Below are positions 23,083 to 44,448 of a stretch of DNA of 64,000 nt, in pieces. The stretch comes from Arenicellales bacterium (GTDB lineage: Bacteria; Pseudomonadota; Gammaproteobacteria; Arenicellales; JAHEKD01): NCBI GenBank assembly GCA_028284225.1, contig JANQSD010000001.1, positions 124,001-188,000 of the forward strand, given 5' to 3'. The notes under the pieces are model-generated. The model was not told the origin of the DNA, made no database searches, and worked only from the letters and a program-made list of their open reading frames with translations. The position numbers were made by a program, and so were the translations under genes. The first letter of the stretch is position 1, and each line of letters starts with the position of its first letter.

Positions 23083-23721
23083 ATGAGCGAAGAACAGATT
23101 ATTCATCAGGAAACTTTGGCGGTTAATCCAAGTGATGCAGCAGAAAATGAGCTGGAAAAAGCAATTGGCCGTCAAGTCAGGGCGTTTAGAAAGCAGCAAC
23201 ACATGACGGTTGTAGAATTGTCAAAGCAAGCGTCGATGTCACCGGGCATGTTATCCAAAGTAGAGAACGGTCAGGCTTCACCCTCACTGGCAACCTTACA
23301 TTCGTTATCGAAAGCCTTAAATGTGCCGGTTACCTCCTTTTTCAGGTTATATGAGGAAGAGAAGGAAGCTGCCTTTGTTAAAGCAGGCCAGGGATTGAAT
23401 ATCGAACGTCGCGGAACGCGTTTTGGTCATCACTACCAGCTGTTAGGCCATTCGATTGCTAATCGCTATTTACTGGAACCATATTTGATCCGAATCAACC
23501 AGGAGTCGGATGTTTTCCCCTTGTTTCAACATGACGGGGTTGAGTTCATTTATGTGTTGGAAGGCATAATGGAATATCGTCATGGTTCTAAGATTTATGA
23601 GATGCATGCAGGTGACTCGTTGTACTTTGATTCTTCAGCTCCGCATGGGCCGGAAAAACTGACAAAAGTACCACTCAAGTTCATAACGGTATTGTTACAG
23701 GATTCTCACGAATTTGATTGA
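23083..23721 (+). CDS. XRE-family regulator with C-terminal cupin domain, copy 1
   Basis: At 212 residues, it has an XRE helix-turn-helix at about 28-84 (IGRQVRAFRKQQHMTVVELS, MSPGMLSKVENGQASPSL) and a cupin sensor domain at about 130-205 (FPLFQHDGVEFIYVLEG, HAGDSLYFDSSAPHGPE). The cupin binds a small ligand in this PuuR-like class. It is closely similar throughout to the second regulator at 39386-40027, so the two are paralogs at opposite flanks of the amine island. A regulatory role for amt or the ligase clusters is inferred from position. It has no strong ribosome binding site. Confidence 0.92.
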   Translation: MSEEQIIHQETLAVNPSDAAENELEKAIGRQVRAFRKQQHMTVVELSKQASMSPGMLSKVENGQASPSLATLHSLSKALNVPVTSFFRLYEEEKEAAFVKAGQGLNIERRGTRFGHHYQLLGHSIANRYLLEPYLIRINQESDVFPLFQHDGVEFIYVLEGIMEYRHGSKIYEMHAGDSLYFDSSAPHGPEKLTKVPLKFITVLLQDSHEFD

Positions 23722-23727
23722 GACTTA

Positions 23728-24267
23728 ATGATCTCTACAATGGATAATTCGACCAGTAGTAAATTTACCTACTGGCAATGTCAGATTCGAAAGTTTTCAG
23801 TTCGTAATCTAGAGGCCAGGCCAACTTCAGGTATACGTCCAGAGCTTATTTTAAATGGTGATTCAATAGCTGTGATTACCACCTTGCTGGTGCCGGAATC
23901 CCCGGATCATGATATCAGCCATTTAAAACACGCTTATCAAAAAACATTTGATCCCAAAAAGCGTAGAGAAGATGCACTTAAGTACTTACAAAGTGAGTTT
24001 TACCAGTTTCCCTACCGGTTTAGCGGCGAATTAACTGCATTAGCGGGCAAGGGCAGCAACTGGGTTCAACGTGTTGCAGATGCTGATCAGGTTGAACTGT
24101 TTTTTGAGCAGGACTCCAGGCAATGGCAATTAAGTTGTGCAACAGAATTATTGTCTATGGATGATCAGCGTTGGCAATTTACTCTGGCGCATAACCAGTT
24201 GTTTAATCACACACTAACAACCAATGTTGATGTGATTTTGTTCAAACCTGTATGGGATCAGACTTAA
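23728..24267 (+). CDS. Conserved-looking protein of unknown function, 179 residues
   Basis: It lies 6 bases downstream of the first XRE-cupin regulator and is probably co-transcribed with it. It is soluble, without signal peptide or membrane segment. It has an N-terminal mixed region, YWQCQIRKFSVRNLEARP, and central basic helices, KTFDPKKRREDALKYLQ. I recognise no catalytic motif or family. An alternative start is the ATG four codons later (MDNSTSSK). Close linkage suggests a job tied to the regulator, but nothing in the sequence states it. Confidence 0.65.
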   Translation: MISTMDNSTSSKFTYWQCQIRKFSVRNLEARPTSGIRPELILNGDSIAVITTLLVPESPDHDISHLKHAYQKTFDPKKRREDALKYLQSEFYQFPYRFSGELTALAGKGSNWVQRVADADQVELFFEQDSRQWQLSCATELLSMDDQRWQFTLAHNQLFNHTLTTNVDVILFKPVWDQT

Positions 24268-24272
24268 ACCGA

Positions 24273-24540
24273 TTAACGGTGATAGGCCTGTACACGCTCT
24301 TTTTCTAGGTCATAAAAACGCAAAGCGAACCACTCTGGCCGGGATTCGTTTGGCATGACTATCCAGTTTGCCGATTTCACTGTGCCTGTTGTCTGCTGCA
24401 TAGCGCAATATTTTTATTTAATATTGGTAACTTCATCGCGCTGGTAATTTCACCAATCTGAGGCCGGCCAACATGAACACAGTCCCGCTCAGCGACCTCT
24501 TCATCTTTGCGCTCCAGTTCGATCAATGTTTATGTGGTGA
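24273..24540 (-). pseudogene. Remnant of a GcvT-family (aminomethyltransferase/DmdA/Tdm-like) C-terminus
   Basis: On the minus strand, three short reading frames join into one recognisable folate-binding GcvT C-terminal domain. Frame A gives RPQIGEITSAMKLPILNKNI then a stop. Frame B resumes with EIGKLDSHAKRIPARVVRF. Frame C finishes with FYDLEKERVQAYHR and a stop at 24275-24273. Two frameshifts are needed, one near 24375-24400 and one at the A run near 24313, and an in-frame stop lies further upstream near 24537. No N-terminal part is recognisable. This is a decayed fragment of an aminomethyltransferase-family gene, beside an island that handles methylated amines. Confidence 0.72.
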
Positions 24541-24742
24541 GGTTTTGCGCGCGATTAATGCTACGTTTATTTCACTATAAGCATAAAATTTTCATAAAAT
24601 TATAAAAATGCCAAAAGTATTCCTAAAAGGAAAAAATTTGTATTTTGGGTAAAATAATGTCATTATGCTGCTCGCATTATTGTTTTGTATTGATGCAACG
24701 AGAGAGAAATTTTTTACACAGAGTATTTAAGAGGTATCAAAG
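24541..24742 (+). promoter_or_regulatory. AT-rich leader upstream of amt
   Basis: About 200 bases without an ORF, strongly AT-rich (runs such as TTTTCATAAAATTATAAAAA near 24589-24608). It ends with TTTACACAGAG (24713-24723) and the ribosome binding site AAGAGG at 24729-24734 before the amt ATG. I see no clear sigma-54 -24/-12 pair. It probably holds the amt promoter, but the exact boxes cannot be fixed by eye. Confidence 0.5.
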
Positions 24743-26113
24743 ATGGACAATGAACTCACCGCGTTGGGCGTTATATTTACGGAATTTTACTATTGGCTCA
24801 CCGTCGTTTTAATGTTTTTAATCCACGTTGGATTTTGTATGTATGAGGTTGGTGCATCACGTCACAAGAATCATATTCATACGTTAATGAAAAACACTAT
24901 GTTAATCCCTTTAGTCACCATTACTTTCTTTTTCTTTGGCTGGTGGATTTATTTTGCTTTTCCTAATGGGCCCGGAATTATCGGCGGATTAAACAGTGCC
25001 GACTGGGCTGAACCCTGGAGCCCGCTTATGGGTGCACACTTAGGTGGTGTGGAAGATCCGGACGGTTGGTCCCGAATCAATGGCGTATTTTGGGCAGCAT
25101 TCTTATTATTTTCTTGGACGGCAGCGTCGATTGTTTCTGGTGCCGTGATTGAACGAATTCGTTCTGGAGCATTCTGGATACTTGCTGTAGCTATTGGTTC
25201 GTTCTTCTGGATAATCGATGCGGCCTGGGGATGGAGTGCCGATGGCTGGATGGTACAAAAACTGGGTTATCATGATGCTTATGCGTCTGGTGTTATCCAT
25301 GCAATCGCTGGTGGATTCGCGTTAGGCGTATTATGTGTTTTGGGCCCAAGAATAGGAAAGTTCGCTGCTGACGGGACACCTCGAAATATTAATCCGCGCA
25401 ACCCGTGGTTAGTCACAATAGGTTTATTCCTAATTTATACTGGTTTCTGGGGTTTTTATGTGGCTTGTAATATTCCTATGTGGGACATCCAGGCCGGTGA
25501 TGGAGTGTTTTATTCAGCAACTAATATTTATTTGGCGCCCACAACACTAAGTGCAATTACTTTTAATTTCTTGATGTCGCTTTCCGGAGGCTTAATGGCG
25601 GCATACTGGATATCAAAGGGCGATGCCTTCTGGACTTATTCTGGTGGGTTAGCCGGAATTATCGCGGCTTCTTCCGGTAATGACTTATATCATCCAATCC
25701 AAGCTATGTTTATTGCTTGTTTAGGTGTAATCGTTGCCTACAAAATGCACTATTGGGTCGAGCGTAAATTCAAAATTGATGATGCGGTAGGTGCGGTCGC
25801 CGTGCATGGTTATGCCGGTTTCTTCGGTGTTGTAATTTGCGGTTTTATGCTTTGGGGCTATCCATCTTCACCAAATCCTGAGTATGCTCACATTACACCT
25901 TGGGGGCAGTTTATCGGTGCGATAATTATGTTCGGTGTTCTAGGGTTTTTGCCAGGGTATGTTATTTCGAAAATTTTAAATGCGATGGGTGTACTTCGAA
26001 TTCCGGCAGCTGTCGAAATTGCCGGGCTTGATTCTCATGCCGCTGATGAGATCGAAGCAGATCGACTGGCGGTTATTGAGTCTGAGCGTGCAGAAATTCA
26101 ATCATTGAACTAG
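24743..26113 (+). CDS. amt: Ammonium transporter (Amt/MEP/Rh family)
   Basis: Inner-membrane ammonium channel, 456 residues with about 11 membrane segments. Recognisable stretches include HVGFCMYEVGASRHKN near residue 27, VFWAAFLLFSWTAASIVSGA, YASGVIHAIAGGFALGVL (first pore His), NPWLVTIGLFLIYTGFWGF and VGAVAVHGYAGFFGV (second pore His). It opens the amine/ammonium island and should supply ammonium or methylammonium to the ligases downstream. Usually amt pairs with glnK; here the next gene instead encodes a 74-residue membrane peptide 11 bases away. The C-terminal tail is acidic and cytoplasmic. Confidence 0.93.
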   Translation: MDNELTALGVIFTEFYYWLTVVLMFLIHVGFCMYEVGASRHKNHIHTLMKNTMLIPLVTITFFFFGWWIYFAFPNGPGIIGGLNSADWAEPWSPLMGAHLGGVEDPDGWSRINGVFWAAFLLFSWTAASIVSGAVIERIRSGAFWILAVAIGSFFWIIDAAWGWSADGWMVQKLGYHDAYASGVIHAIAGGFALGVLCVLGPRIGKFAADGTPRNINPRNPWLVTIGLFLIYTGFWGFYVACNIPMWDIQAGDGVFYSATNIYLAPTTLSAITFNFLMSLSGGLMAAYWISKGDAFWTYSGGLAGIIAASSGNDLYHPIQAMFIACLGVIVAYKMHYWVERKFKIDDAVGAVAVHGYAGFFGVVICGFMLWGYPSSPNPEYAHITPWGQFIGAIIMFGVLGFLPGYVISKILNAMGVLRIPAAVEIAGLDSHAADEIEADRLAVIESERAEIQSLN

Positions 26114-26124
26114 AGGAAATAATC

Positions 26125-26349
26125 ATGTCTACAGGAACATTTGAAAATTGGGCCGGTAACATAGTTGATATCGGTGTTATTTATCCATTTGAAGGCTCCG
26201 AGTTTGTCTTGGTAATCGCCGGCCTTGTATTTTGGGTGTGTTGGCATATTCGACAGATGAAAGCTGAGAATGCCGCCCTTGACCAACAAGTCAAAGAGCT
26301 TAGTAAAGAAAAGCTCAAGTCTCTCGACCTAGATGATCTAGATGTTTAA
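26125..26349 (+). CDS. Small single-span membrane protein downstream of amt, function unknown
   Basis: At 74 residues, it has a short N-terminal segment, one transmembrane helix at about 29-46 (FVLVIAGLVFWVCWHI) and a charged C-terminal helix with coiled-coil character (MKAENAALDQQVKELSKEKL). It starts 11 bases after amt, with GGAAATAATC as a reasonable ribosome binding site. Position and size suggest an accessory subunit of the Amt channel or an anchor for a partner. This is inference; I do not recognise the family. Confidence 0.7.
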   Translation: MSTGTFENWAGNIVDIGVIYPFEGSEFVLVIAGLVFWVCWHIRQMKAENAALDQQVKELSKEKLKSLDLDDLDV

Positions 26350-26402
26350 CGCTTTCTGCGTAGAAAAAACAGTCTGTTGACTGTTCCTCTCGTCTGTAAT
26401 GA

Positions 26403-26428
26403 CTGGGTGTCACTAAACTGACACCCAG
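26403..26428 (+). terminator. Strong hairpin after the amt unit
   Basis: CTGGGTGTCA (26403-26412) and TGACACCCAG (26419-26428) form a perfect 10-base-pair stem with a 6-base loop, 54 bases after the small membrane protein gene. Only a weak T-containing tail follows. It is best read as an intrinsic terminator or transcript-end hairpin separating amt from the ligase operon. Confidence 0.65.
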
Positions 26429-26485
26429 CTCATTTCAAAGGATTGACGCAAATTCCATTATTTTAACTACAGGAAAATATTATTC

Positions 26486-26514
26486 TTGACATTATATTTT
26501 TCGACTCATAATAT
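26486..26514 (+). promoter_or_regulatory. Sigma-70-like promoter of the first ligase operon
   Basis: TTGACA at 26486-26491 matches the -35 consensus exactly. A 17-base AT-rich spacer leads to TAATAT at 26509-26514. The start codon of the ligase gene lies 63 bases downstream, with an AGGAGAA ribosome binding site. Confidence 0.6.
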
Positions 26515-26577
26515 TGGATTAGAAGCAATTTCAGTCGCTAAACCGATTATTAGCATCACCCAGACCAGGAGAAATAC

Positions 26578-28059
26578 ATGGCAAAAAATGACTCAACTGA
26601 TTTAGAACGCCACGTCAGTGCACGTGGTCGTACTCAACTTATTAAACAAGTACGCGAAAAAATTAATGAACTCGGTATCGAGTATATCTATTACCAGTTT
26701 ATTTCAGTAACAGGACGAATAGTGGGTAAGGGTATCCCCGCCGATCATTGGGAACGTACCGCCGCTAAGGGATTTCAATTAGTTTACGGTGCAACTGCGA
26801 ATCTGTTTGTGGATCGTCATGGTGAGTACATTGGCTATGGTCCGGAGGCCGCGGAGTTGGTTGGTATTCCTGATCCCGAAACCTTTGTGCAGTTACCTTG
26901 GGATAAACGTATTGGTCGTGTATTTTGCACATGTTTTCGAAATAGAGAAGAAAAAGTCAATCCTGGTGGCCATTTGACCTCTGATTGCCGAGGGAATCTA
27001 CGCATTATTCATGACGAATTTAAGAAAAAGCACGGCCTGGAATTACGTGCCGGCACAGAACCGGAGATGATGTGGCTCAAGCGTGGTGAAGATGGGCAAC
27101 CCGATGGTGGTTTTTCAAACCCATATTGTTATCACATCGATCAGTTTGAATCATTAAGGCCGGTTTCCATGCAAGTCATTAAGTATGCCCGAGCGATGGG
27201 ACTGGATATGATTCAGGGAGATCATGAAGATGCACCCGGTCAGTTAGAGTTAAACTGGCAATTCGATGAAGTGCTGCGAAACGCCGACAGGCTTTCAACT
27301 TACCGGCAAATTTGTGCTCAGGTGGCCCGTGAAAATAATCTGATTGCCTGTTTTATGAGCAAACCGTTTATGGGTGTGTCAGCATCAGGTTGTCATCATA
27401 ATGTTTCACTTTGGAAAGGCGGAAAGGATGTAACCAATAAACTCGGTCACGACAAACTGCCAGGGTTGAAAGATTCGTTTAGTTATCGTGATGGTGGCGA
27501 TAACAAGTTCATGCCTGACACCAAGGATCAACAAAAACCAGGCAAAGTCGGCCTAATGGCAATAGGCGGTATTATGGCGCACCTGGGTGCGTTGACGGCG
27601 ATAGGCTGTTCCACGGTTAATTCTTATCGACGTTTATGGGATACAGGTTTTTGGGCACCGGTCTTTGCTGACTGGGGCTATCAGAATCGTACTACCGGCA
27701 TGCGGGTATCTGCGCCGGGCCGATTCGAGTATCGCGCAGTGGACTCCATGGTTAATCCTTATTTAATGGGATCGGCAATCTTGAAAGCGTTTGATGATGG
27801 TCTGCAAAATAAACTCGATCCCGGTGAGCCTGAAGAACGCAATATATATGAAGCAATGGAGGCGGGTAAAGAAGTTAAAAAATTACCCATGTCTCTGGGC
27901 GAAGCTCTTGACCGGCTGGCGAATGATGAAGTCATTAAATCTGCCATGCCGGATGAAATGTATAAGGTTTTCCACTGGTACAAAAACGATGAATGGGAGA
28001 AGTTCATGTCGACGGTAACGGATTGGGATCAGGAAACGTATCTTGATTGTTTGCCTTAA
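26578..28059 (+). CDS. Glutamine-synthetase-family ligase, copy 1 (GlnT-like)
   Basis: An ATP-dependent glutamate-amine ligase of the glutamine synthetase superfamily, 493 residues. GS motifs are ELRAGTEPEMMW (metal Glu), GDHEDAPGQLELNW, ACFMSKPFMGVSASGCHHNV (His and ATP site), CSTVNSYRRLWDTGFWAP and GRFEYRAVDSMVNPYL. It heads an operon with amidotransferase, GXGXG and FMN-synthase genes, so its product is probably handed to that complex. It is clearly diverged from both other GS paralogs in the window. It could be a true ammonia ligase or a gamma-glutamylamide synthetase; the amine cannot be read from sequence. Confidence 0.9.
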   Translation: MAKNDSTDLERHVSARGRTQLIKQVREKINELGIEYIYYQFISVTGRIVGKGIPADHWERTAAKGFQLVYGATANLFVDRHGEYIGYGPEAAELVGIPDPETFVQLPWDKRIGRVFCTCFRNREEKVNPGGHLTSDCRGNLRIIHDEFKKKHGLELRAGTEPEMMWLKRGEDGQPDGGFSNPYCYHIDQFESLRPVSMQVIKYARAMGLDMIQGDHEDAPGQLELNWQFDEVLRNADRLSTYRQICAQVARENNLIACFMSKPFMGVSASGCHHNVSLWKGGKDVTNKLGHDKLPGLKDSFSYRDGGDNKFMPDTKDQQKPGKVGLMAIGGIMAHLGALTAIGCSTVNSYRRLWDTGFWAPVFADWGYQNRTTGMRVSAPGRFEYRAVDSMVNPYLMGSAILKAFDDGLQNKLDPGEPEERNIYEAMEAGKEVKKLPMSLGEALDRLANDEVIKSAMPDEMYKVFHWYKNDEWEKFMSTVTDWDQETYLDCLP

Positions 28060-28093
28060 TCAGCTAACGAATTATTACTAAGGAGTTTTATCA

Positions 28094-29029
28094 ATGTGTG
28101 GAATAGCTGGACTTATTCATCGCGGAAAGAGTTCGGATATTGGTTCAGAAATGGTTTCCATGTTGCAGTCACTCAAGCACAGGGGGCCTGACTCAACAGG
28201 TTTTGCTCTATATGGTGTGCCTGAAGAAAATCGCTGTATTTTGCGATTCAAGGTGGCAGAACAAGAGGACCTGAGTTCTGGATTTGATATTCATGCACAA
28301 ATCAAAGAGCGTAAAGCGACCGTTGATGAGCGCTTAAAAGAACTCGGAGCCAGTGTGGTTGAAAAAGATGAAGCCACTGAATATGCATTCAGATATGAGT
28401 TTGAATACGACGGTGATATGCGGCGATTGGCCGATTATATTGAAGATGGTGATGGTGCAGAAATTTTGTCAATCGGTAGAGGTCTGGAATTAATCAAGGA
28501 TCTAGGTGATGCTACTGTTGTTTCCGATGCTTATGACTTAAAAGGTTTTCAGGGGACACACGCAATCGGCCATACTCGTATGGCTACCGAGTCGGATGTT
28601 GATATTCGTTCCGCCCATCCTTATTGGGCGTATCCGTTTAATGATGTTTCAGTCGTCCACAATGGTCAGCTGACCAATTATTGGACTTCCCGGCGGGAAC
28701 TGGAACGTCGCGGTCATCGCTTTATGTCCAATTGTGATTCAGAGGTCATTGCAGTTTATATTGCAGATCGAATGAATCAGGGTGATGACCTGGAAGCCGC
28801 CATGAAACGATCTATTGATGAGCTTGATGGCGTGTTTACCTATATTGTTGCCACCAGCGATAAATTGGGTATGGCTAAAGATGTAATGGCAGCCAAGCCG
28901 ATGGTATTGTATGAAAGTGACGATTTCGTGGGCCTGGCATCTGAAGAAGTGGCAATTAGAAGTGTCTTTCCGCATGAGATTGATACTTGGGACCCTTATG
29001 AAGGCGAGGTGAAAGTATGGCAGGCGTAG
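28094..29029 (+). CDS. Class II glutamine amidotransferase, GlxB/MgsA-like, cluster 1
   Basis: An Ntn-type amidotransferase domain equivalent to the N-terminal part of glutamate synthase, 311 residues. Met1 is followed by the nucleophile Cys2 (MCGIAGLIHRG). Other motifs are LKHRGPDSTGF, THAIGHTRMATES, VHNGQLTNYW and NCDSEVIAVYI. It has an insertion at about 85-130 rich in Glu and Lys. It overlaps the next gene by 13 bases, and the set mirrors glutamate synthase split into three chains. Confidence 0.9.
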   Translation: MCGIAGLIHRGKSSDIGSEMVSMLQSLKHRGPDSTGFALYGVPEENRCILRFKVAEQEDLSSGFDIHAQIKERKATVDERLKELGASVVEKDEATEYAFRYEFEYDGDMRRLADYIEDGDGAEILSIGRGLELIKDLGDATVVSDAYDLKGFQGTHAIGHTRMATESDVDIRSAHPYWAYPFNDVSVVHNGQLTNYWTSRRELERRGHRFMSNCDSEVIAVYIADRMNQGDDLEAAMKRSIDELDGVFTYIVATSDKLGMAKDVMAAKPMVLYESDDFVGLASEEVAIRSVFPHEIDTWDPYEGEVKVWQA

Positions 29030-29856
29030 CGCATAAATCCCATGAGATGGGATTGCATTCAGAACAGTTAAGCGGACGTACACAGCAGCGTTTTTTTTCT
29101 GCAACAGAGGAAGAAAATTTCGTCTACCCGTGGTCGTACGAAGTTGATTTTGATAAGTCCGCACAGTTTGATGCCGAGGGCATGGATACGCCACAGATCA
29201 ATGTGAAAATCCGCGAATTAATGCAGCAGGGCCACGGCACGATTACGGTCAAAAACCCAATGGCCAGACATTCTTTGGGTGTGGGTATTCTGAATCGATT
29301 AAATCTTAATTTTGAAGGGTCGTTGGGCTACTTTGGTTGTGGATTAATCGATGGCCCGAACGTTCATATCAGTGGACGTGTGGGCTGGTCTTGTGCAGAA
29401 AATATGATGGCCGGTACTGTAGTGATTGAAAAAAACGGTGGTTCAACTTTTGGTGCAGCAATGCGTGGTGGAGATTTGGTCTGCAAAGGTGATGTCGGTT
29501 CACGAACAGGTATCGATCAGAAAGGCGGCACCATTATTGTTGGTGGTCGTACCGGTGCTTTTTCTGGCTTTATGATGCAACGTGGTCGTATGGTGATTCT
29601 TGGGGATGCCGGTAAAAATCTAGGTGACTCCATGTATGACGGAACGATTTATGTGGGCGGCAAGCTCACCGATCTTGGCGTAGATTGCGTGGAAGGGGAA
29701 ATGACAGATTTGGATGTTAAATGGTTGAATGACAAGCTCGGCAAGTATGGACTTGAAGCGCCAAACGGAGCCGAAAACATGACTAAGCTGGTTTCAGGCA
29801 AGCAGCTCTGGAATTATGACAATTTAGAACCGACTGAGAAAAAATTGGTTCTGTAA
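29017..29856 (+). CDS. GXGXG-domain protein, GlxC/MgsB-like, cluster 1
   Basis: A beta-helix domain equivalent to the C-terminal GXGXG part of the glutamate synthase large subunit, 279 residues. The repeats run from about residue 95 to 230: GSLGYFGCGLIDGPN, GRVGWSCAENMMAGT, GAAMRGGDLVCKGDVGSRTG, GGRTGAFSGFMMQRG and GDAGKNLGDSMYDGTIYVGG. It is about 50 residues longer than its paralog at 41087, mostly an N-terminal extension. It bridges amidotransferase and FMN subunits in the assumed complex. Confidence 0.9.
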   Translation: MAGVAHKSHEMGLHSEQLSGRTQQRFFSATEEENFVYPWSYEVDFDKSAQFDAEGMDTPQINVKIRELMQQGHGTITVKNPMARHSLGVGILNRLNLNFEGSLGYFGCGLIDGPNVHISGRVGWSCAENMMAGTVVIEKNGGSTFGAAMRGGDLVCKGDVGSRTGIDQKGGTIIVGGRTGAFSGFMMQRGRMVILGDAGKNLGDSMYDGTIYVGGKLTDLGVDCVEGEMTDLDVKWLNDKLGKYGLEAPNGAENMTKLVSGKQLWNYDNLEPTEKKLVL

Positions 29857-29877
29857 CTTATAGCCAAGGATTTAACT

Positions 29878-31251
29878 ATGACAGGAAGACCAGTAAAAAT
29901 AGATGCTAAAACCGGACGGCAGGTTCGGGATGTCCATAATCTTGGTAAAAGTTTTATTTTTCCACCGGAAGTCATCGATGACATTCATATCAAATCCGAA
30001 CTTGGACGCTATCGTATGCGGGGATTTTCTTTGTTCAAGAAAATTCCGACCTGGGACGATTTAACATTTATGCCGGGGACATTAACACGTTTTGTGATAG
30101 AGGGTTATCGTGAGAAATGTCTGACTAAAACAATCATCGGGCCTAAAGCCAAGCACCCGCTTGAATTAGATATTCCCGTTTATATTACCGGTATGAGTTT
30201 TGGTGCCTTATCCTATGAAGCTAAAACGGCTTTGGCGCGTGGCGCTACTATGGCTGGAACGGCAACCTGTTCAGGTGAGGGCGGTATGATTCCGGATGAG
30301 CGCCGTTATTCTTCTAAATGGATGTATCAATGTATCCAATCACGTTATGGTTTCAATCCTAACCATTTGCGTCTGGCCGATTGTGTTGAGTTCTTTATTG
30401 GCCAAGGGTGTAAGGTAGGGCTCGGCGGGCACTTGATGGGTCAGAAAGTGACCGACCAGGTGGCAGAAATGCGCTCATTGCCGGCGGGTATTGATCAGCG
30501 TTCACCTGCCCGCCATCCCGATTGGCTGGGACCGGATGACTTAGCATTAAAGATTAATGAAATTCGAGAAGCGACTAATGGTGAAATTCCTATTCAGTTA
30601 AAACTTGGTGCAGCACGGGTGTATGATGACGTTCGCATGGCTGCAAAAACTGGCCCAGATTCTATTTATATTGATGGTATGGAAGGTGGAACCGGCGCTG
30701 GCCCGCACTTGGCCACTGAAGAAACCGGTGTGCCGGGTATTGCGGCAATCAGGCAAGCACGCCATGCCTTGGATGATGTTGGTCAATCCGGAGAAATCTC
30801 ATTGGTGTATGCCGGAGGGATTCGTAATGGCGGTGATGTGGCCAAAGCGTTGGCCCTTGGAGCCGATGCAGTGGCTATTGGCCATAGCGCTTTAATGGCA
30901 CTCAATTGTAATAAAGCTATTCCTGAAGCTGACTTCGAAACGGAAATGGGTGTAGAGGCCGGTTATTGTTATCACTGTCATACCGGTCGCTGCCCGGTTG
31001 GGGTTGCGACTCAGGATCCGGAGCTGCGAAAGCGTTTGAATCCTGATGATGCGGCCGAGCGAGTATATAACTTCTTGCATACCCTGACTATTGAGGCGCA
31101 AATGTTGGCACGTGCTTGCGGTAAAACTAACATTCATTCATTGGAACCTGAAGATTTAGCGGCATTAACAATGGAGGCATCTGCTTTAGCTCAAGTTCCA
31201 CTGGCCGGTACTCAGCATACCGTTGGCCGGCCGGATATGACCCGTTTCTAG
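29878..31251 (+). CDS. FMN-binding glutamate synthase-type subunit, GlxD/MgsC-like, cluster 1
   Basis: A synthase domain of the split glutamate-synthase-like enzyme, 457 residues. It has YITGMSFGALSYEAKTALA, CSGEGGMIPDERR, GGHLMGQKVTDQVAEMR, GAARVYDDVRMA, GMEGGTGAGPHLATEETG and YAGGIRNGGDVAKALALGAD, the FMN and 2-oxoglutarate site of GltB. A cysteine cluster, C364-x2-C367-x4-C372 (CYHCHTGRCPVG), corresponds to the [3Fe-4S] site of glutamate synthase. The cluster 2 paralog lacks these cysteines. The product is either glutamate or an N-substituted glutamate. Confidence 0.9.
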   Translation: MTGRPVKIDAKTGRQVRDVHNLGKSFIFPPEVIDDIHIKSELGRYRMRGFSLFKKIPTWDDLTFMPGTLTRFVIEGYREKCLTKTIIGPKAKHPLELDIPVYITGMSFGALSYEAKTALARGATMAGTATCSGEGGMIPDERRYSSKWMYQCIQSRYGFNPNHLRLADCVEFFIGQGCKVGLGGHLMGQKVTDQVAEMRSLPAGIDQRSPARHPDWLGPDDLALKINEIREATNGEIPIQLKLGAARVYDDVRMAAKTGPDSIYIDGMEGGTGAGPHLATEETGVPGIAAIRQARHALDDVGQSGEISLVYAGGIRNGGDVAKALALGADAVAIGHSALMALNCNKAIPEADFETEMGVEAGYCYHCHTGRCPVGVATQDPELRKRLNPDDAAERVYNFLHTLTIEAQMLARACGKTNIHSLEPEDLAALTMEASALAQVPLAGTQHTVGRPDMTRF

Positions 31252-31260
31252 GAGATAAGC

Positions 31261-31650
31261 ATGAGTACAGACAATATCGATCATTTTTTAGAAACAGATG
31301 GTGTAGACACTGAGCGTGAAAAAGATATCGGACAACACATTGGTTATCGTTACGATGTTAATCTTGTTCCGGACATGGCTTATTGCACGCCATTTTTAAA
31401 AAAATACATGGAAGTCATGGGCTGGACAGATCTGAACTGGCTCGAAGATGTGCATATGGGTTACGAAGAAAATCGAGCAGCAGTATTTGATCGTAATATA
31501 AATGGTTGGGTCACTGTCCCAGAAGATATCGAATTGCCTGATAACCAGCAGGAGCGAGACATGATTGCCCGGGAATTATTAATAAAATTCCAAATGTCCA
31601 GCAATCATCCAATGGTTGATTTGCGCAAGGCTTACGAGAAATTTAAATAA
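31261..31650 (+). CDS. Unknown 129-residue protein closing ligase operon 1
   Basis: It starts 9 bases after the FMN-subunit gene with GGAGATAAGC as ribosome binding site, so it belongs to the same operon. The protein is soluble and acidic, without signal peptide. Notable segments are KDIGQHIGYRYDVNLVPDM, TPFLKKYMEVMGWTDLNW, and a C-terminal helical part with MIARELLIKFQMSSNHPM. I do not recognise the family. There is no equivalent in the mgsABC-gmaS set at 40188-44448, making it a candidate specific subunit or chaperone of the cluster 1 enzyme. Confidence 0.8.
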   Translation: MSTDNIDHFLETDGVDTEREKDIGQHIGYRYDVNLVPDMAYCTPFLKKYMEVMGWTDLNWLEDVHMGYEENRAAVFDRNINGWVTVPEDIELPDNQQERDMIARELLIKFQMSSNHPMVDLRKAYEKFK

Positions 31651-31653
31651 ATA

Positions 31654-31688
31654 TTTATTTTCGAAATACTAGCAGGGACGAAAATAAA
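31654..31688. repeat. AT-rich inverted repeat after ligase operon 1
   Basis: TTTATTTTCG (31654-31663) pairs perfectly with CGAAAATAAA (31679-31688) around a 15-base loop, immediately after the last gene of the operon. It may mark the transcript end or a regulator site. The remaining intergenic DNA to 31940 is AT-rich and shows nothing else I can support apart from a plausible tmm promoter region. Confidence 0.45.
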
Positions 31689-31940
31689 AAGAATTTATTA
31701 AATCTGTAGCAGCTGATGAGAATCCACTGCTTGGGAAAATAATTTCAATCTATCGCCATATTGAAGCTTCTCTTTAGCACATGTAGCAATATCTGATTTT
31801 TTTTGCGGGATGGTTGTTTCTTATTATTTTTTCATATCGAAACCTATCGTATGTGCTGGCTAAGTTAAATGACCCACTGAATCGGCACTTTTGCTATATT
31901 TTGCTTTGATGCTTGCAACTATTAATTTAAGGTATGGTTT

Positions 31941-33281
31941 ATGACAAGAGTGGCAATCATCGGAGCCGGTCCATCAGGTACGGCACAACTAAGAGCATTT
32001 GCATCAGCATCTGAAAATGGTGCTGAAATCCCGGAGATTGTTTGTTATGAAAAACAGGCTGATTGGGGCGGATTGTGGAATTACACCCAGTACACAGGTA
32101 TTGATCAGCACGGTGAACCAGTCCATGGGAGTATGTATCGTGACTTATGGTCTAATGGTCCCAAAGAATGCCTTGAATTTGCCGATTATACGTTTGAAGA
32201 ACATTTTGGCCGTCCAATAGCATCTTATCCACCGAGAGAAGTTTTAGCTGATTATATAAAAGGGCGTGTAAAAAAAGCCGGAGTGAGAAAATACTGCAGA
32301 TTTAATCATAGTGTCCATCACGTTAGTTATTGTGATCAAACAGAAAAGTTTATGATTCAGGTCAAAAATCTACGTGACAATCAATTTATTACTGATGAGG
32401 CTGACTATGTTGTTGTGGCAACAGGACATTTTTCAACACCTAATCTACCGCATTTCAAGGGTCTAGAGACTTTTAATGGGCGTGTGCTTCACGCACATGA
32501 TTTTCGTGATGCCAGAGAATTTATTGATCAAGATTTATTAATTGTTGGTGCCAGTTATTCTGGTGAGGATATTGCATCTGTATGTTATAAGTTTGGCTCT
32601 AAATCAGTAACAATTAGTCATCGAACAGAACCTACCGGTTTTAATTGGCCTGACAATTTTCAAGAAGTGCCTTTATTGGCTCATGTCGATGAAAAGACTG
32701 CATATTTTAAAGATGGCAGTAGCAAACAAGTGGATGCGATTATTTTGTGTACAGGCTATTTGCACCATTTTCCATTTATGGAAAACAGTTTGTGTTTACG
32801 TACTGATAATCGTATGTGGACGCCGGGGTTATATCAGGGTGTGATCTGGCAGGACAACCCTAAATTGATTTATCTGGGTATGCAAGATCAGTTCTACACC
32901 TTTAATATGTTTGATGCGCAGGCTTGGTACGCGCGTGATGTAATTATGGGTCGAATCGAGTTGCCTGCAAAAGCAGATATGCAAAAACATAGTGATGCCT
33001 GGGAAGCGCGTGAGCAAACGTTGGTGAGCAATGAGGATATGATCTGGTTTCAAGGTGATTATACTCAAGCTTTAATCGATCTGACTGATTATCCATGTTT
33101 TGATGTAGAAGGCGTGAATAAAACATTTATGGAATGGGAGCATCATAAACATAAAGATATTCTGAAGTTTCGTGATAATTCCTATCGTTCATTAATAACC
33201 GGAAATATGCAGCCCGTTCACCATACCTCGTGGATGCAAGCGATGGATGATTCAATGCAGGCATATCTAAACCAACCATAA
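31941..33281 (+). CDS. tmm: Trimethylamine monooxygenase (bacterial flavin-containing monooxygenase)
   Basis: Tmm oxidises trimethylamine to trimethylamine N-oxide with NADPH and oxygen; it also accepts related methylated amines and sulfides. At 446 residues it has FAD motif GAGPSG at 8-13, EKQADWGGLWNY, SMYRDLWSNGPKECLEFADY, the FMO signature FNGRVLHAHDFRD, NADPH motif GASYSGED, ILCTGYLHHFPF, and GMQDQFYTFNMFDAQAWYAR. These segments closely resemble Tmm of Methylophaga and marine bacteria. It has its own upstream region. Its frequent partner Tdm (TMAO demethylase) is not adjacent. Its substrate links it to the mgs/gmaS methylamine genes nearby. Confidence 0.92.
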   Translation: MTRVAIIGAGPSGTAQLRAFASASENGAEIPEIVCYEKQADWGGLWNYTQYTGIDQHGEPVHGSMYRDLWSNGPKECLEFADYTFEEHFGRPIASYPPREVLADYIKGRVKKAGVRKYCRFNHSVHHVSYCDQTEKFMIQVKNLRDNQFITDEADYVVVATGHFSTPNLPHFKGLETFNGRVLHAHDFRDAREFIDQDLLIVGASYSGEDIASVCYKFGSKSVTISHRTEPTGFNWPDNFQEVPLLAHVDEKTAYFKDGSSKQVDAIILCTGYLHHFPFMENSLCLRTDNRMWTPGLYQGVIWQDNPKLIYLGMQDQFYTFNMFDAQAWYARDVIMGRIELPAKADMQKHSDAWEAREQTLVSNEDMIWFQGDYTQALIDLTDYPCFDVEGVNKTFMEWEHHKHKDILKFRDNSYRSLITGNMQPVHHTSWMQAMDDSMQAYLNQP

Positions 33282-33448
33282 AAAATTCGGCAGTGCGACT
33301 AATATGTAAATTTCTTTAATGATAGACATTTACACTGCTTGAAAAGTAAATCATTAATAATAAAATCGCGATGACACTGCCGGAATAGAATTTGGCATTG
33401 TATTATGCATTCCTGTCAGCACAATAGTGATGACATGATGTTAATCAA

Positions 33449-33459
33449 TTTACACAGAG
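33449..33459 (+). promoter_or_regulatory. Shared leader motif before ppc
   Basis: TTTACACAGAG. The same 11-mer precedes amt (24713-24723) and the GS copy 2 gene (36867-36877). Its AGAG may serve as the ppc ribosome binding site, 4 bases before the first ATG. Confidence 0.45.
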
Positions 33460-33463
33460 TACT

Positions 33464-36884: not shown

Positions 36885-38300
36885 ATGACTGCTTATGTAG
36901 AAAACTTTAATGATGCATTGCCATCTTCTGAGAGAATCGCCGAGGTGCGCAAACAGCTGGAAGCAGCCGGTGTTAAATATGTGTTGTCGAGCTGGATAGA
37001 TTTGTTTGGTATTCCTAAAACTAAACCGGTGCCGATGAGCGATTTTGAATTGCTTTGCATGGGTAAAGGCCCTCAGTTTGCCGTTCATTCTATTTCATAT
37101 GTGCCGGAGTTGACGCCAGCGGATTCAGATCAAGTGATGGTGCCTGATCTGGACGCCGTTTATATCTGCCCCTGGGATAAATCCATGGCTATTATTTTTG
37201 CCGATTTATTTTGGGAGGATAAGCCTTACAACGTTTGTCCACGCCAGGCACTTAAGCGAGTAATCAAAGCTGCTGAAGCTGATGGTTATGTGGGGTATGC
37301 CGGAATCGAGCCGGAGTTTATTGCTATGTGCTATGACGACAATGGCCAGCCGGTTAAAGCCATCGATAATGACCCGGCTGAAGGAGTACAACCCCGTCGG
37401 CAAGCTTTTGGTTACGACGTTGAGTATTCATTAGACTCTATGCCTTTCTTAAAGGATATGATTGATATTCTTGAGGATCTTGGCTGGAACTTGCATGATG
37501 TGGTGGCCGAAGGAGCTTATTCACAGTTTGAACTCGATTTTCACTACACCAACCTCTTGGAAATGGCTGATCGCTTCGTGTTTTTACGCATCATGTTAAA
37601 AGAAGTTGCAAAAGAACACGGTATGTTTATTACCTTTATGCCTAAACCAACGATTGGTGACTGGCGTTCTGGAGCACATATAAATTTCTCGCTGCAGTCG
37701 ACCGATAATTCTGGTGAAAATCTATTTGGTAGCGCCGCAAAGGGGTGGAGCGATGAATCGCGTTATGCTGTCGGTGGCTTAATGGCTAATGCCGAGGCGA
37801 TAACTGCAATTACCTGTTCTACTGTAAATTCGTATAACGGGTTGGTGCCTCGGGTAGGGGGGTTTGAAGGAGGCACTGTGACTTGGGCGCCAACGAATAT
37901 TACTTATGGTTATAACAATCGATCTGCACAATTCCGTTTGCCGCAAAGCCGTCACTGTATTGAAAATCGCGCAGCTGATATGTGTATGAATGTTTATTTG
38001 GCATTAGGGATGACATTAAAAGGTGCAATCGATGGAATTAAAAATCAAATCGATCCTGGGCCGGCCACCGACCGTGATCTTTATCAGATGACAGACGAAG
38101 AATTTAAGGAATTAGGGATTCGCCGGTTGCCGCGTAATCTGATGATGGCAACTGATGCATTGCGTGATAATGAGCTTGCCAAAGAAGTTTTAGGGCCGGT
38201 TATGCTTAATTCATACCTTGCCTACAAAGTCGATGAATGGGAGCGTTATCATCAGAGTGTTACCGACTGGGAAGTACAGGAGTACCTGAGACTGTATTAA
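36885..38300 (+). CDS. Glutamine-synthetase-family ligase, copy 2 (probable gamma-glutamylamide synthetase)
   Basis: At 471 residues, with GS-fold motifs GYAGIEPEFIAMC, EGAYSQFELDFHY (where classical GS has a more conserved Glu/His set), TFMPKPTIGDWRSGAHINFS, CSTVNSYNGLVPR and NRSAQFRLPQ followed by RAADM. The N-terminal KYVLSSWIDLFGIPKTKPV is typical of GS-like amine ligases. It is sandwiched between an Lrp regulator and a MetX-like hydrolase that starts on its stop (TAATG). The pairing suggests a specific amine or amino substrate that is glutamylated; which one is unknown. Confidence 0.88.
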   Translation: MTAYVENFNDALPSSERIAEVRKQLEAAGVKYVLSSWIDLFGIPKTKPVPMSDFELLCMGKGPQFAVHSISYVPELTPADSDQVMVPDLDAVYICPWDKSMAIIFADLFWEDKPYNVCPRQALKRVIKAAEADGYVGYAGIEPEFIAMCYDDNGQPVKAIDNDPAEGVQPRRQAFGYDVEYSLDSMPFLKDMIDILEDLGWNLHDVVAEGAYSQFELDFHYTNLLEMADRFVFLRIMLKEVAKEHGMFITFMPKPTIGDWRSGAHINFSLQSTDNSGENLFGSAAKGWSDESRYAVGGLMANAEAITAITCSTVNSYNGLVPRVGGFEGGTVTWAPTNITYGYNNRSAQFRLPQSRHCIENRAADMCMNVYLALGMTLKGAIDGIKNQIDPGPATDRDLYQMTDEEFKELGIRRLPRNLMMATDALRDNELAKEVLGPVMLNSYLAYKVDEWERYHQSVTDWEVQEYLRLY

Positions 38301-39307: not shown

Positions 39308-39385
39308 TTTTGCCTTTCATAAGCCTCACCTGAAGCGATGATTTGGGTAAAATGGTTCGGCCATAACATATTACTGTGGATCAGC

Positions 39386-40187: not shown

Positions 40188-41087
40188 ATGTGTGGAATAA
40201 TCGGTTTATATAGTAAAACGCCAGAGCTTGAGTCCAAACTTGGTCAGTTAGCCTGCGATATGTTAAGGCAAATGACTGATCGCGGACCAGACAGCGCCGG
40301 ATTTGCGATTTATCGAGATCAGGTTGAGGATAATCAAGTCAAGGTCACTTTGCGACTGCTGGATGACCAGGCTGATATTGAACCGATCAGGTCCAGGTTT
40401 GCCGATAAATTCGGTGAGTCAGCTCGAGTCGAGCAAAATGCTAATCATGCAGTTGCGGTCTTGGCGGCCGACAAGCAATCGGTGGCAGATTGGATTAAAT
40501 CAGAATTGCCTGAATGTGTGATAACCAGTATCGGTAGCGCAATAGAAATCTATAAAGAAAAGGGCTTGCCCGGTGATGTGATAGACCAGTTTGGTTTCGA
40601 AGCTATGGCCGCTACTCATGCATTAGGACATACACGTATGGCAACTGAAAGTGCAGTAACCACTGAACATTCTCACCCTTTTTCAACCGGACTGGATTTG
40701 TGCCTGGTGCATAATGGCTCATTATCGAATCATAATCAGTTGAGGGAGAAATTACGCAAAGATGGTGTTGAATTTCAAACCGATAACGACAGCGAAGTTG
40801 CTGCAGGTTATCTGACCTGGCAACTCGGGCGGGGAGCCACTCTGAAACAAGCGCTCGAAGCGGCACTTGAGGATCTGGATGGTTTTTATACATTTGCAAT
40901 CGGTACTAAAAAAGGTTTTGCGGTGTTACGTGATCCCATCGCCTGTAAACCGGCTGTTATAGCAGAAACCGATGATTGGGTAGCCATGTCATCAGAATAT
41001 CGTGCTATCGCTCAGCTACCGGGTAGCGAGGCTGCCAAAATATGGGAACCTGAACCGGCCACAATTTATTCCTGGGGAGATGATTAG
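40188..41087 (+). CDS. mgsA: N-methylglutamate synthase subunit A (class II amidotransferase-like)
   Basis: At 299 residues, it starts MCGIIGLYSKTPELES with nucleophile Cys2 and has MTDRGPDSAGFAI, THALGHTRMATESAV, LCLVHNGSLSNHNQL and TDNDSEVAAGYLTW. It is homologous to GlxB and to the amidotransferase part of glutamate synthase. Order with the next three genes (A-B-C-gmaS) matches the mgsABC-gmaS arrangement known from methylamine-using bacteria, which supports the specific name over a generic GlxB. TAGTG overlap with mgsB. Confidence 0.88.
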   Translation: MCGIIGLYSKTPELESKLGQLACDMLRQMTDRGPDSAGFAIYRDQVEDNQVKVTLRLLDDQADIEPIRSRFADKFGESARVEQNANHAVAVLAADKQSVADWIKSELPECVITSIGSAIEIYKEKGLPGDVIDQFGFEAMAATHALGHTRMATESAVTTEHSHPFSTGLDLCLVHNGSLSNHNQLREKLRKDGVEFQTDNDSEVAAGYLTWQLGRGATLKQALEAALEDLDGFYTFAIGTKKGFAVLRDPIACKPAVIAETDDWVAMSSEYRAIAQLPGSEAAKIWEPEPATIYSWGDD

Positions 41088-41767
41088 TGAATACTTTTGA
41101 TCTTGCCAATGAGTCTGTCAGGCAACTGAATCAGACTTTACATTCGAATCAATGCAAAGACGCTGAAATAGCTGTTATCAATCCCGGCGGTAAGCATTCC
41201 ATTGCAGTCGGTGCGATGGTGAACTGCCAGGTCAATATCGATGGACACGTTGGCTATTATTGTGCTGGCATGAATCAACAGGCTGATATTGTCATCAATG
41301 GTAATGCCGGCCCGGGATTGGCGGAAAACATGATGTCGGGAACCGTCAGGGTTAAAGGCAATGCATCACAGTATTGTGCAGCCACGGCGCATGGCGGGTT
41401 ACTGGTTGTTGAAGGTGATGCTGCTGCACGTTGCGGTATTTCGATGAAGGGCATTGATATTGTGGTTCAGGGCTCGATCGGGCATATGAGCGCATTTATG
41501 GCCCAGACTGGTCGATTAGTTGTGTTTGGTGATGCCGGTGATGCTTTGGGTGATTCAATTTATGAGGCCAGGATTTATCTTCAGGGCCAACCCAAAAGTT
41601 TAGGTTCTGACTGTATCGAAAAACCGATGAATGATGAGCATAAGCAAGAGCTTGGTGAATTACTGGCGAGAGCGAATAGTACCGGTGTGGATATCTCAAA
41701 TTTCAGACGCTATGGTTCAGCCCGCGAATTGTACAATTTCAAAGTCGATAACCTGTCAGCATATTAG
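41087..41767 (+). CDS. mgsB: N-methylglutamate synthase subunit B (GXGXG domain)
   Basis: At 226 residues, it starts with GTG at 41087, sharing its first base with the mgsA stop. Its beta-helix repeats include GGKHSIAVGAMVNCQVNIDG, GHVGYYCAGMNQQ, GNAGPGLAENMMSGTVRVKG, GDAAARCGISMKGID and GDAGDALGDSIYEARIYLQG. The C-terminal RRYGSARELYNF matches the same region of GlxC. It joins A and C in the NMG synthase complex, which transfers methylamine from gamma-glutamylmethylamide or directly onto 2-oxoglutarate. Confidence 0.88.
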   Translation: MNTFDLANESVRQLNQTLHSNQCKDAEIAVINPGGKHSIAVGAMVNCQVNIDGHVGYYCAGMNQQADIVINGNAGPGLAENMMSGTVRVKGNASQYCAATAHGGLLVVEGDAAARCGISMKGIDIVVQGSIGHMSAFMAQTGRLVVFGDAGDALGDSIYEARIYLQGQPKSLGSDCIEKPMNDEHKQELGELLARANSTGVDISNFRRYGSARELYNFKVDNLSAY

Positions 41768-41779
41768 AGGACTAACAGC

Positions 41780-43111
41780 ATGAGCAAAAAAATTGACCAA
41801 AGCTGGCTGAACGAATCGGCAACGTTTACTCGGCCGGTTATTCGTGAAATTCAACGTGCGGCCAGCGAAGGGATTTATGATATTCGCGGGTTTGGCGCCA
41901 AGCGTTCAATTCCGACATTTGATGATTTGTTATTTTTAGGAGCCAGTGTTTCCCGTTATCCATTAGAGGGCTATAGAGAAAAGTGTGATACCAGAGTGAC
42001 CTTGGGGACGCGCTTTGCGAAAAAACCGATTGAAATATCGACCCCAATCACTATTGCGGGTATGAGTTTCGGTGCACTATCTGCGCAGGCGAAAGAAGCC
42101 CTGGGTCGAGGTGCGACAGAGGTAGGTACCAGTACCACAACCGGCGATGGTGGTATGACGCCGGAGGAGCGTCAACATTCGAAGATTCTGGTTTATCAAT
42201 ATTTACCTTCACGCTACGGTATGAATCCGGATGACTTGCGTAAAGCCGATGCTATTGAAGTAGTGGTCGGGCAGGGAGCCAAGCCTGGTGGTGGCGGCAT
42301 GTTGCTGGGTCAGAAGATTTCCGAGCGTGTAGCACAAATGCGTGATTTACCGCAGGGTATCGATCAACGTAGTGCCTGTCGCCACCCTGATTGGACCGGG
42401 CCTGATGATCTTGAAATTAAAATTCAGGAGCTTAGGGAAATAACGGATTGGCAGGTCCCTATTTATGTCAAAGTCGGCGCCACGCGCACATTTTTTGATG
42501 TTCAGCTTGCCGTTAAGGCAGGTGCTGATGTGGTTGTTGTAGATGGTATGCAGGGTGGCACAGCGGCGACACAAGAAGTATTTATCGAGCATGTGGGTAT
42601 TCCTACTTTACCAGCAACCCGACTGGCAGTTGAGGCATTAAAAGGCATCGACATGCACCGCAAAGTACAGTTGATTGTTTCAGGTGGTATTCGTACTGGT
42701 GCTGATGTGGCTAAGGCACTGGCAATGGGCGCTGATGCAGTTTCGATAGGTACCGCTGCACTCATAGCGATGGGTGATAATTCGCCTGAGTTTGAGAATG
42801 AGTATAATGAGTTGGGTACAAGTGCAGGTTATTATGACGACTATCAAGATGGTAAAGACCCAAGTGGTATTTCCACCCAGGACCCGGAGTTAGGCAGGCG
42901 GCTTGATCCTGAGTTGGCTGGCAGGCGAGTGGCGAATTATTTGCGCTGTTTGACCCTGGAAACCCAAACACTTGCCCGAGCAGCGGGTAAAACCGATGTG
43001 CATAATCTTGAGCCTGAAGATATGGTGGCTTTGACTATTGAAGCATCAGCAATGGCCAAAGTGCCGTTAGCAGGAACTGACTGGATACCCGGGGTGACAC
43101 ACAAATTTTAA
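41780..43111 (+). CDS. mgsC: N-methylglutamate synthase subunit C (FMN glutamate-synthase domain)
   Basis: At 443 residues, with TIAGMSFGALSAQAKEALG, TGDGGMTPEERQ, GGGMLLGQKISERVAQMR, GATRTFFDVQLAVKAGAD, VVDGMQGGTAATQEV and IVSGGIRTGADVAKALAMG. It aligns along its length with the cluster 1 paralog. Where that protein has three cysteines for an iron-sulfur site, this one has Y352, Y355 and D360 (segment AGYYDDYQDGKDPSG), so the [3Fe-4S] cluster is predicted absent. That implies a different electron path in the two enzymes. An AGAGGACTAACAGC ribosome binding region precedes the ATG. Confidence 0.88.
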   Translation: MSKKIDQSWLNESATFTRPVIREIQRAASEGIYDIRGFGAKRSIPTFDDLLFLGASVSRYPLEGYREKCDTRVTLGTRFAKKPIEISTPITIAGMSFGALSAQAKEALGRGATEVGTSTTTGDGGMTPEERQHSKILVYQYLPSRYGMNPDDLRKADAIEVVVGQGAKPGGGGMLLGQKISERVAQMRDLPQGIDQRSACRHPDWTGPDDLEIKIQELREITDWQVPIYVKVGATRTFFDVQLAVKAGADVVVVDGMQGGTAATQEVFIEHVGIPTLPATRLAVEALKGIDMHRKVQLIVSGGIRTGADVAKALAMGADAVSIGTAALIAMGDNSPEFENEYNELGTSAGYYDDYQDGKDPSGISTQDPELGRRLDPELAGRRVANYLRCLTLETQTLARAAGKTDVHNLEPEDMVALTIEASAMAKVPLAGTDWIPGVTHKF

Positions 43112-43140
43112 TTTATTCTTAGCACAGAGAGGCAAAAACA

Positions 43141-44448
43141 ATGGCTAAACAACTTGCTACTATTGCCAAGCAAAAAGGCATCAAATATTTTTTAATCAGT
43201 TTTGTTGATCTATTCGGTGTACTGCGAGCGAAACTCGTGCCGGCACGAGCTATTGCGGAAATGCAGCAAGAGGGCGCCGGGTTCGCCGGTTTTGCTTCCT
43301 GGCTGGATATGACTCCGGCCCATCCCGACATGTTCGCTATACCTGATCCTGACAGTTTAATCCAATTGCCCTGGAAACCGGAAGTTGGCTGGTTGGCTGG
43401 AGACTTGTGGATGGATGATAAGCCGGTTGAAGCTTCACCACGAGTAGCTCTCAAGCGCCAGATAGAAAAAGCGGCAAAAAAAGGTTACCAGATGAAAACC
43501 GGGGTGGAGTGTGAGTATTTTTTGATTTCACCCGATGGTCAGCAAATAGCCGATGCCAAAGATACTCAGGAAAAGCCTTGTTATGATCAGTCTGCATTAA
43601 TGCGCCGCTATGATGTTATTAGTGAGATTTGTGACAGCATGATAGAACTGGGTTGGGGGCCCTATCAGAATGATCACGAGGATGCTAATGGTCAGTTCGA
43701 GATGAATTGGGATTTTTCTGACTGTTTAAGCACTGCGGACCGTCATGTGTTTTTTAAATATATGACCAAACAAATAGCGGAAAATCATGGATTACGAGCA
43801 ACCTTTATGCCCAAACCATTTTCGCATTTAACCGGAAATGGTTGTCATGCCCATGTCTCCCTGTGGGATAAAACCGGCAAAAAGAACCTGTTTGCAAATA
43901 AATCTGATGAGCTGGGTTTATCTAAAGTGGCTTATCAATTTTTGGGCGGCATTATGCATAATGTTGAAGCACTGGGTTCGATTTTTAATCCTACGGTAAA
44001 CAGTTATAAACGCATTAACGCGCCGCGAACTTTATCAGGGGCAACCTGGTCTCCAAATGCTGTTAGTTATTCCGGGAATAATCGTACCCATATGATTCGA
44101 GTTCCGGGCGCCGGACGATTTGAAATGCGGCTGATGGATGGCGCAGCAAATCCATATTTAATGCAGGCTGGAATTCTGGCAGCTGGATTGGACGGCATTG
44201 AGAATAAACGCGATCCGGGCAAACGTCATGATGTGAACATGTATGAAGAAGGTCATAAAATAAAAGGGCTGAAAAAATTGCCTTTGAACCTGCTAGATGC
44301 AGTACGCAAAACGCAAGCAAGTAAATCGTTGAAAGCGGCCCTGGGTGAAGATTTGGTCGATAGCTATTGCAAGCTGAAAATGGAGCAATGGAATAGCTAT
44401 ACTAAATCAATCAGCCAGTGGGAATATGATAATACTCTGGATTGTTAG
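43141..44448 (+). CDS. gmaS: Gamma-glutamylmethylamide synthetase
   Basis: GmaS ligates methylamine to glutamate with ATP, the entry step of the indirect methylamine pathway. At 435 residues it closely resembles GmaS: KGIKYFLISFVDLFGVLRAK at the N-terminus, GAGFAGFASWLDMTPAHPD, QLPWKPEVGWLAGDLWM, TGVECEYFLI, QNDHEDANGQFEMNWDFSD, MPKPFSHLTGNGCHAHVSLW, NPTVNSYKRINAPRTLSG and GRFEMRLMDGAANPYL. It directly follows mgsABC. GlnT-type glutamine synthetase activity is the alternative; the gene order and N-terminal signature favour GmaS. Confidence 0.9.
   Translation: MAKQLATIAKQKGIKYFLISFVDLFGVLRAKLVPARAIAEMQQEGAGFAGFASWLDMTPAHPDMFAIPDPDSLIQLPWKPEVGWLAGDLWMDDKPVEASPRVALKRQIEKAAKKGYQMKTGVECEYFLISPDGQQIADAKDTQEKPCYDQSALMRRYDVISEICDSMIELGWGPYQNDHEDANGQFEMNWDFSDCLSTADRHVFFKYMTKQIAENHGLRATFMPKPFSHLTGNGCHAHVSLWDKTGKKNLFANKSDELGLSKVAYQFLGGIMHNVEALGSIFNPTVNSYKRINAPRTLSGATWSPNAVSYSGNNRTHMIRVPGAGRFEMRLMDGAANPYLMQAGILAAGLDGIENKRDPGKRHDVNMYEEGHKIKGLKKLPLNLLDAVRKTQASKSLKAALGEDLVDSYCKLKMEQWNSYTKSISQWEYDNTLDC

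Follow-up and report, generated by a model that had tools for sequence, protein, structure and literature searches.

GmaS and MgsABC, a ligase and a synthase that act on methylamine, are the described systems closest to the locus reported here. GmaS (TIGR03105; solved as 7CQL and 9QUR) has the glutamine synthetase (GS) fold and a methylamine site of seven residues, among which Asp177 and Glu186 are the proposed bases (PMC7948447). RhGmaS also takes dimethylamine (DMA), slowly (Km 16 mM, kcat 2.6 per s; PMC7948447); a GS fold can therefore join DMA to glutamate, and the reaction type has precedent. MgsABC, like GlxBCD, is split into amidotransferase, GXGXG and FMN subunits. For DMA itself the described enzyme is DmmABC, an oxygenase with a PF11927 catalytic subunit that is placed after Tdm, the demethylase of trimethylamine oxide (TMAO) (Lidbury 2017, PMC5520151). 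The lack of dmmDABC in SAR11 and in abundant marine Gammaproteobacteria was called intriguing in that study, and its authors inferred that DMA may accumulate and escape to the air (PMC5520151). SAR11 strain HTCC1062 grows on TMAO nitrogen without dmmDABC, and an unknown isoenzyme has been supposed (PMC8918994).

The window analysed here is a stretch of 64,000 nucleotides from an Arenicellales bacterium. The initial annotation had described a five-gene operon at 26578-31650 (a GS-family ligase, an amidotransferase, a GXGXG protein, an FMN subunit and a 129-residue protein) as parallel to mgsABC-gmaS yet diverged. The five ORFs were found intact and co-directional on the + strand at these coordinates and the families were confirmed (Table 1). 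The genes are separated by 34, -13, 21 and 9 bases in gene order, and the three MgsABC subunit types are all present in the same order as in MgsABC. A TTGACA-17-TAATAT match lies at 26486, shortly 5' of the first ATG, in a region where promoter-like matches are about as numerous as in shuffled sequences; no RNA element reached the gathering score in 24000-34000. The operon had also been called the best candidate for an undescribed system in the window. In a search confined to the open-access PMC literature, no description of the operon, or of a pathway through gamma-glutamyl-dimethylamide or dimethylglutamate, was found.

Table 1. Features of the operon and its surroundings (positions in the window).
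Feature	Position	Strand	Length	Family or evidence
XRE/cupin-type regulator, upstream	23083..23721	+		60% identical to regulator at 39338 beside mgsABC
c7, conserved protein	23728..24267	+	~180 aa	No Pfam family; predicted split-barrel fold
Decayed remnant of tdm C-terminal part	24277..24570	-		tblastn with five Tdm proteins; in-frame stops
Amt-family transporter, upstream	24743..26113	+		PF00909; under cut-off of both NCBIfam amt models
GS-like ligase (GSL), proposed gamma-glutamyl-dimethylamide synthetase	26578..28059	+	493 aa	Gln-synt_C (Pfam)
Class II glutamine-amidotransferase-like subunit (MgsA/GlxB-like)	28094..29029	+	311 aa	GATase_6/7; N-terminal MCGIAG with catalytic Cys2
GXGXG-domain subunit (MgsB/GlxC-like)	29017..29856	+	279 aa	PF01493
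FMN/Fe-S glutamate-synthase-like subunit (MgsC/GlxD-like)	29878..31251	+	457 aa	PF01645 (Glu_synthase)
u129, conserved protein, proposed extra subunit	31261..31650	+	129 aa	No Pfam/NCBIfam match
tmm, trimethylamine monooxygenase, directly downstream	31941..33281	+		NF058570, 780.9 bits, over cut-off
mgsA, mgsB, mgsC, gmaS, canonical methylamine set	40188..44448	+

The GS-like ligase, GSL, scored 290.5 bits against TIGR03105, under the cut-off of 469.6, compared to 681.7 bits (over the cut-off) for the true GmaS of the window, which also matched the solved GmaS 7cql with 645 bits. Ten GSL sequences were aligned to RhGmaS, with residue roles and numbering taken from PMC7948447. The amine-site residues Lys30', Tyr147, Gln175, Asp177, Glu179, Glu186 and Asn188 are identical in all ten. 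In 10/10 sequences Val takes the place of the GS ammonium-site residue Asp50' and Trp that of Glu304; both GS residues are lost in GmaS too, which likewise has Trp at the flap position. GSL differs from GmaS near the amine site (Ala48 to Val, Gly49 to Tyr, Tyr174 to Ile) and by an extra insertion, and it forms a clade of its own (support 100/100) outside the sampled GmaS/GlnT sequences, with a deep placement that is unsure owing to long branches in the tree. By these residues GSL looks like an organic-amine ligase rather than an ammonium ligase. The presence of the GmaS amine site without the two ammonium-handling residues of GS makes ammonium assimilation unlikely. As every methylamine contact of GmaS is unchanged, sequence alone does not favour DMA over methylamine.

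Relatives share 84-96% identity in the FMN subunit, which is 50% identical to the MgsC of the window and about 29% identical to the GltB that the genome also encodes. The FMN subunits of the cassette, as we term the five genes, form one clade (100/99) outside the sampled MgsC/GlxD sequences, whereas the MgsC of the window falls in one clade with plasmid MgsC/GlxD. With the sequences sampled, the ligase and FMN trees do not place the cassette inside characterised MgsABC. The Fe-S motif C-x2-C-x4-C (CYHCH[TS]GRC) is kept in 73/73 cassette FMN subunits checked; the MgsC of the window has none of its cysteines in the part that was aligned, and they are also missing from three plasmid MgsC. The initial annotation was correct in this difference, but the cysteines also occur in the GlxD-type relatives of the Aquabacterium and Acidithiobacillus glnT-glxBCD operons and so do not separate the operon from every MgsC/GlxD relative. 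The amidotransferase starts with MCGIAG in 60/64 homologues (MCGIV/VCGIV/MCGIS in the remaining four), and the GXGXG subunit is present in every complete cassette. By its proposed function, the operon is like GmaS/MgsABC; by sequence, it carries some of the marks of GmaS and of MgsABC and lacks others.

The fifth protein, u129, has no counterpart in the methylamine set. It gave zero matches in Pfam and NCBIfam and no clear sequence or fold relative in the PDB. The best PDB sequence match (E 0.005) was an unrelated-looking Toxoplasma protein and was rejected. With a predicted structure of pLDDT 80, a Foldseek search returned nothing at E 0.001 and the best Z in a VIA-align comparison was an uninformative 3.0. 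Column identity averages 73% over 67 sequences from Gamma- and Alphaproteobacteria, and the gene always lies directly 3' of the FMN gene. Because of this invariant position, we propose that u129 is an extra subunit of the synthase.

Contigs were scanned for u129 relatives, giving at least 579 stretches, of which the best 80 yielded 79 loci. All five genes were complete and in order in the 53/53 loci with more than 5.3 kb of upstream sequence. u129 was found in 31/60 relatives; phylum-wide the cassette is rare, with 2/398 genomes including that of the window. The flanking ORFs of the 79 loci were clustered and scanned for families, and genes were counted in the 42 loci of at least 15 kb. Recurrent neighbours are Tdm (26 of the 42 loci), a GntR/FCD regulator (33), c7 (26), c4 (23), Amt (21), FolD (16), SoxA- and SoxB-type subunits (10 with both), formate-THF ligase (Fhs, 8) and betaine/choline-type ABC genes. 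NF053776 (Tdm) was over its cut-off in both neighbour examples scanned. Some genomes without Tdm, that of locus L049 for example, have soxBDA genes directly 3' of the cassette. The operon thus travels with Tdm and methyl-THF genes. Together with the GmaS-like amine site, this favours the suggestion of the initial annotation that the pathway serves another amine; that annotation named neither DMA, nor the link to Tdm, nor the tdm remnant described below. The neighbour c4 (L051:3835-5172 and 28 other loci) is a FAD-dependent DAO-type oxidoreductase and possibly an N-methylglutamate-type dehydrogenase; its gene often immediately precedes that of the ligase. It was rejected as a core part of the cassette: present in 20/35 cassette genomes and in 3 genomes without cassette, but missing from the genome of the window, it is linked but not universal.

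The window genome carries the cassette without a full Tdm. A tdm remnant closely precedes the Amt gene; in a target of 475 bases it was detected with E values of 1e-14 to 1e-17, against 0/200 shuffles. Intact tdm copies exist in relatives. As the gene stands close to the cassette in divergent orientation in several of the relatives (loci L060 and L065, for example), it was probably once present beside the operon of the window and then lost. c7, present in 38/79 cassette loci, was modelled with pLDDT 93, and flavin/haem split-barrel proteins were among its best Foldseek matches (E about 0.01). Its identification as DmmA was rejected, since DmmA has its own Pfam families and c7 matches none of them.

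To describe the distribution of these genes, 60 genomes of the order of the window, at least 90% complete, were sampled. Both u129 and Tdm were found in 33, u129 only in 2, Tdm only in 2 and neither in 23 (P = 3e-12) when two Tdm fragments are taken as present; the strict count is 32/3/1/24. By genus the table reads 14/2/1/9 (P = 2e-4), and u129 and Tdm switch together between genera inside three families (f2, f3 and f8). As Tdm and the cassette are often adjacent, part of their correlation may reflect joint inheritance. PF11927 was found in none of the 60 genomes, that of the window included. Among 50 cassette genomes reached through loci, several of which are the same as order-set genomes by their identical Tdm coordinates, PF11927 was present in 2, one weakly, and Tdm in 39. 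Of the 398 phylum-wide genomes, 26 have Tdm, and 25 of these 26 have PF11927. The only Tdm genome without it, G067, is the only cassette carrier in this set besides the genome of the window. In two plasmid methylamine-gene loci, PF11927 adjoins DmmA and DmmB homologues. Combined, these data indicate that PF11927 or the cassette is present in nearly every sampled Tdm genome, the two being complementary. Two genomes depart from this pattern: G022 has Tdm without cassette or PF11927, and G507 has all three. Of the enzymes for DMA, which also include DMA dehydrogenase and corrinoid methyltransferases, the survey covered the PF11927 oxygenase, and many of the sampled genomes are incomplete MAGs.

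We consider it somewhat probable that the operon is the DMA counterpart of GmaS/MgsABC, acting downstream of Tdm where the oxygen-dependent DmmABC is absent. It is the distribution that points to DMA. The route proposed here is modelled on GmaS/MgsABC/Mgd, and its substrate, intermediates and acceptor, like the part played in it by u129, are inferred. First, GSL would spend ATP on linking DMA with the gamma-carboxyl group of glutamate, so that gamma-glutamyl-dimethylamide is formed. The amidotransferase subunit would then free the amine into a tunnel, and its reductive addition to 2-oxoglutarate, in which the GXGXG, FMN/Fe-S and 129-residue subunits would take part, would give N,N-dimethylglutamate. 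Tetrahydrofolate-linked dehydrogenases of Sox/Mgd type would strip the methyl groups, yielding methylene-THF for oxidation by FolD/Fhs and leaving glutamate. The operon would share with DmmABC its place in the pathway but no subunit: the PF11927 and DmmA families are absent from it, and DmmABC is an oxygenase whereas the operon encodes a ligase and a synthase.

A second methylamine system is an unlikely alternative. In this case the cassette would be an isoenzyme of GmaS/MgsABC making N-methylglutamate, and DMA would be handled otherwise. The complete GmaS amine site of GSL is what such an isoenzyme would show, and the SoxBDA/Mgd genes that follow the cassette in some loci recall the order gmaS-mgsABC-mgdABCD. 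Furthermore, 14 genomes of the order with cassette and Tdm have no MgsC at 70% identity or more. However, one of the fourteen, G038, has other GmaS/Mgs-like genes near tdm, so that these genomes do not show the cassette standing alone, and 20 cassette genomes of the order, like the window, already have a canonical MgsC. The GSL and FMN clades lie outside GmaS/MgsC on long stems, and dozens of Tdm genomes would be left with no enzyme for the DMA step.

The substrate could also be an amine other than these that occurs in the same habitat, such as a short-chain or a further N-methylated one, with the link to Tdm explained by shared methyl-THF chemistry. We regard this as improbable. Tdm was undetected in 11/50 cassette genomes, as this explanation would allow, and glycine-betaine-type ABC transporter genes are common near the cassette; but these often adjoin Tdm and may encode TMAO transporters, and the near-exclusive pattern of cassette and PF11927 among Tdm genomes would not be expected. 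There is very little likelihood that the cassette merely recycles or detoxifies C1/amine intermediates from Tdm (formaldehyde adducts, for instance) without a DMA route: its close linkage with Tdm, FolD and Fhs would fit, but a GS-like ligase with the GmaS amine site plus a GOGAT-like complex would be left unexplained, as would the complementarity with PF11927. Dedicated ammonium assimilation, the other suggestion of the initial annotation, was rejected as extremely improbable, mainly on the replaced ligase residues: an Amt-family gene adjoins the operon, which has the three GOGAT domain types and a GS-like ligase as in GltBD (NADPH glutamate synthase) and GlnA, but the genome has a GltB of its own, from which the FMN subunit is distant, and the distribution of the cassette tracks Tdm.

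The cassette is a concrete and testable candidate for the DMA step in its carriers. If it does serve this step, DMA turnover would be underestimated by metagenomic work that counts dmmDABC only, and u129 would offer a simple marker of what is missed. A wider reading is more tentative and, in our view, possible rather than probable: in many uncultured Gamma- and Alphaproteobacteria, a Candidatus Thioglobus genome among them, dimethylamine monooxygenase would be replaced by an N,N-dimethylglutamate pathway that needs no oxygenase and has a new, obligate small subunit, and this would close the DMA gap of marine Gammaproteobacteria.

Further genes of these families were seen elsewhere. A third GS-like gene of the window, at 36885-38300 beside an AsnC-type regulator, has Gln175 and Asp177 of GmaS replaced by Asp and Val, respectively. 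In G038 (locus L160, C35:10000-29000), a second diverged Mgs/GmaS-like set lies near tdm and tmm, and its FMN protein, of about 660 residues, is 41% identical to the cassette FMN subunit. Finally, from translations judged by eye, the segment 399-16426 of the window carries genes resembling purine/xanthine catabolism together with an ABC transporter.
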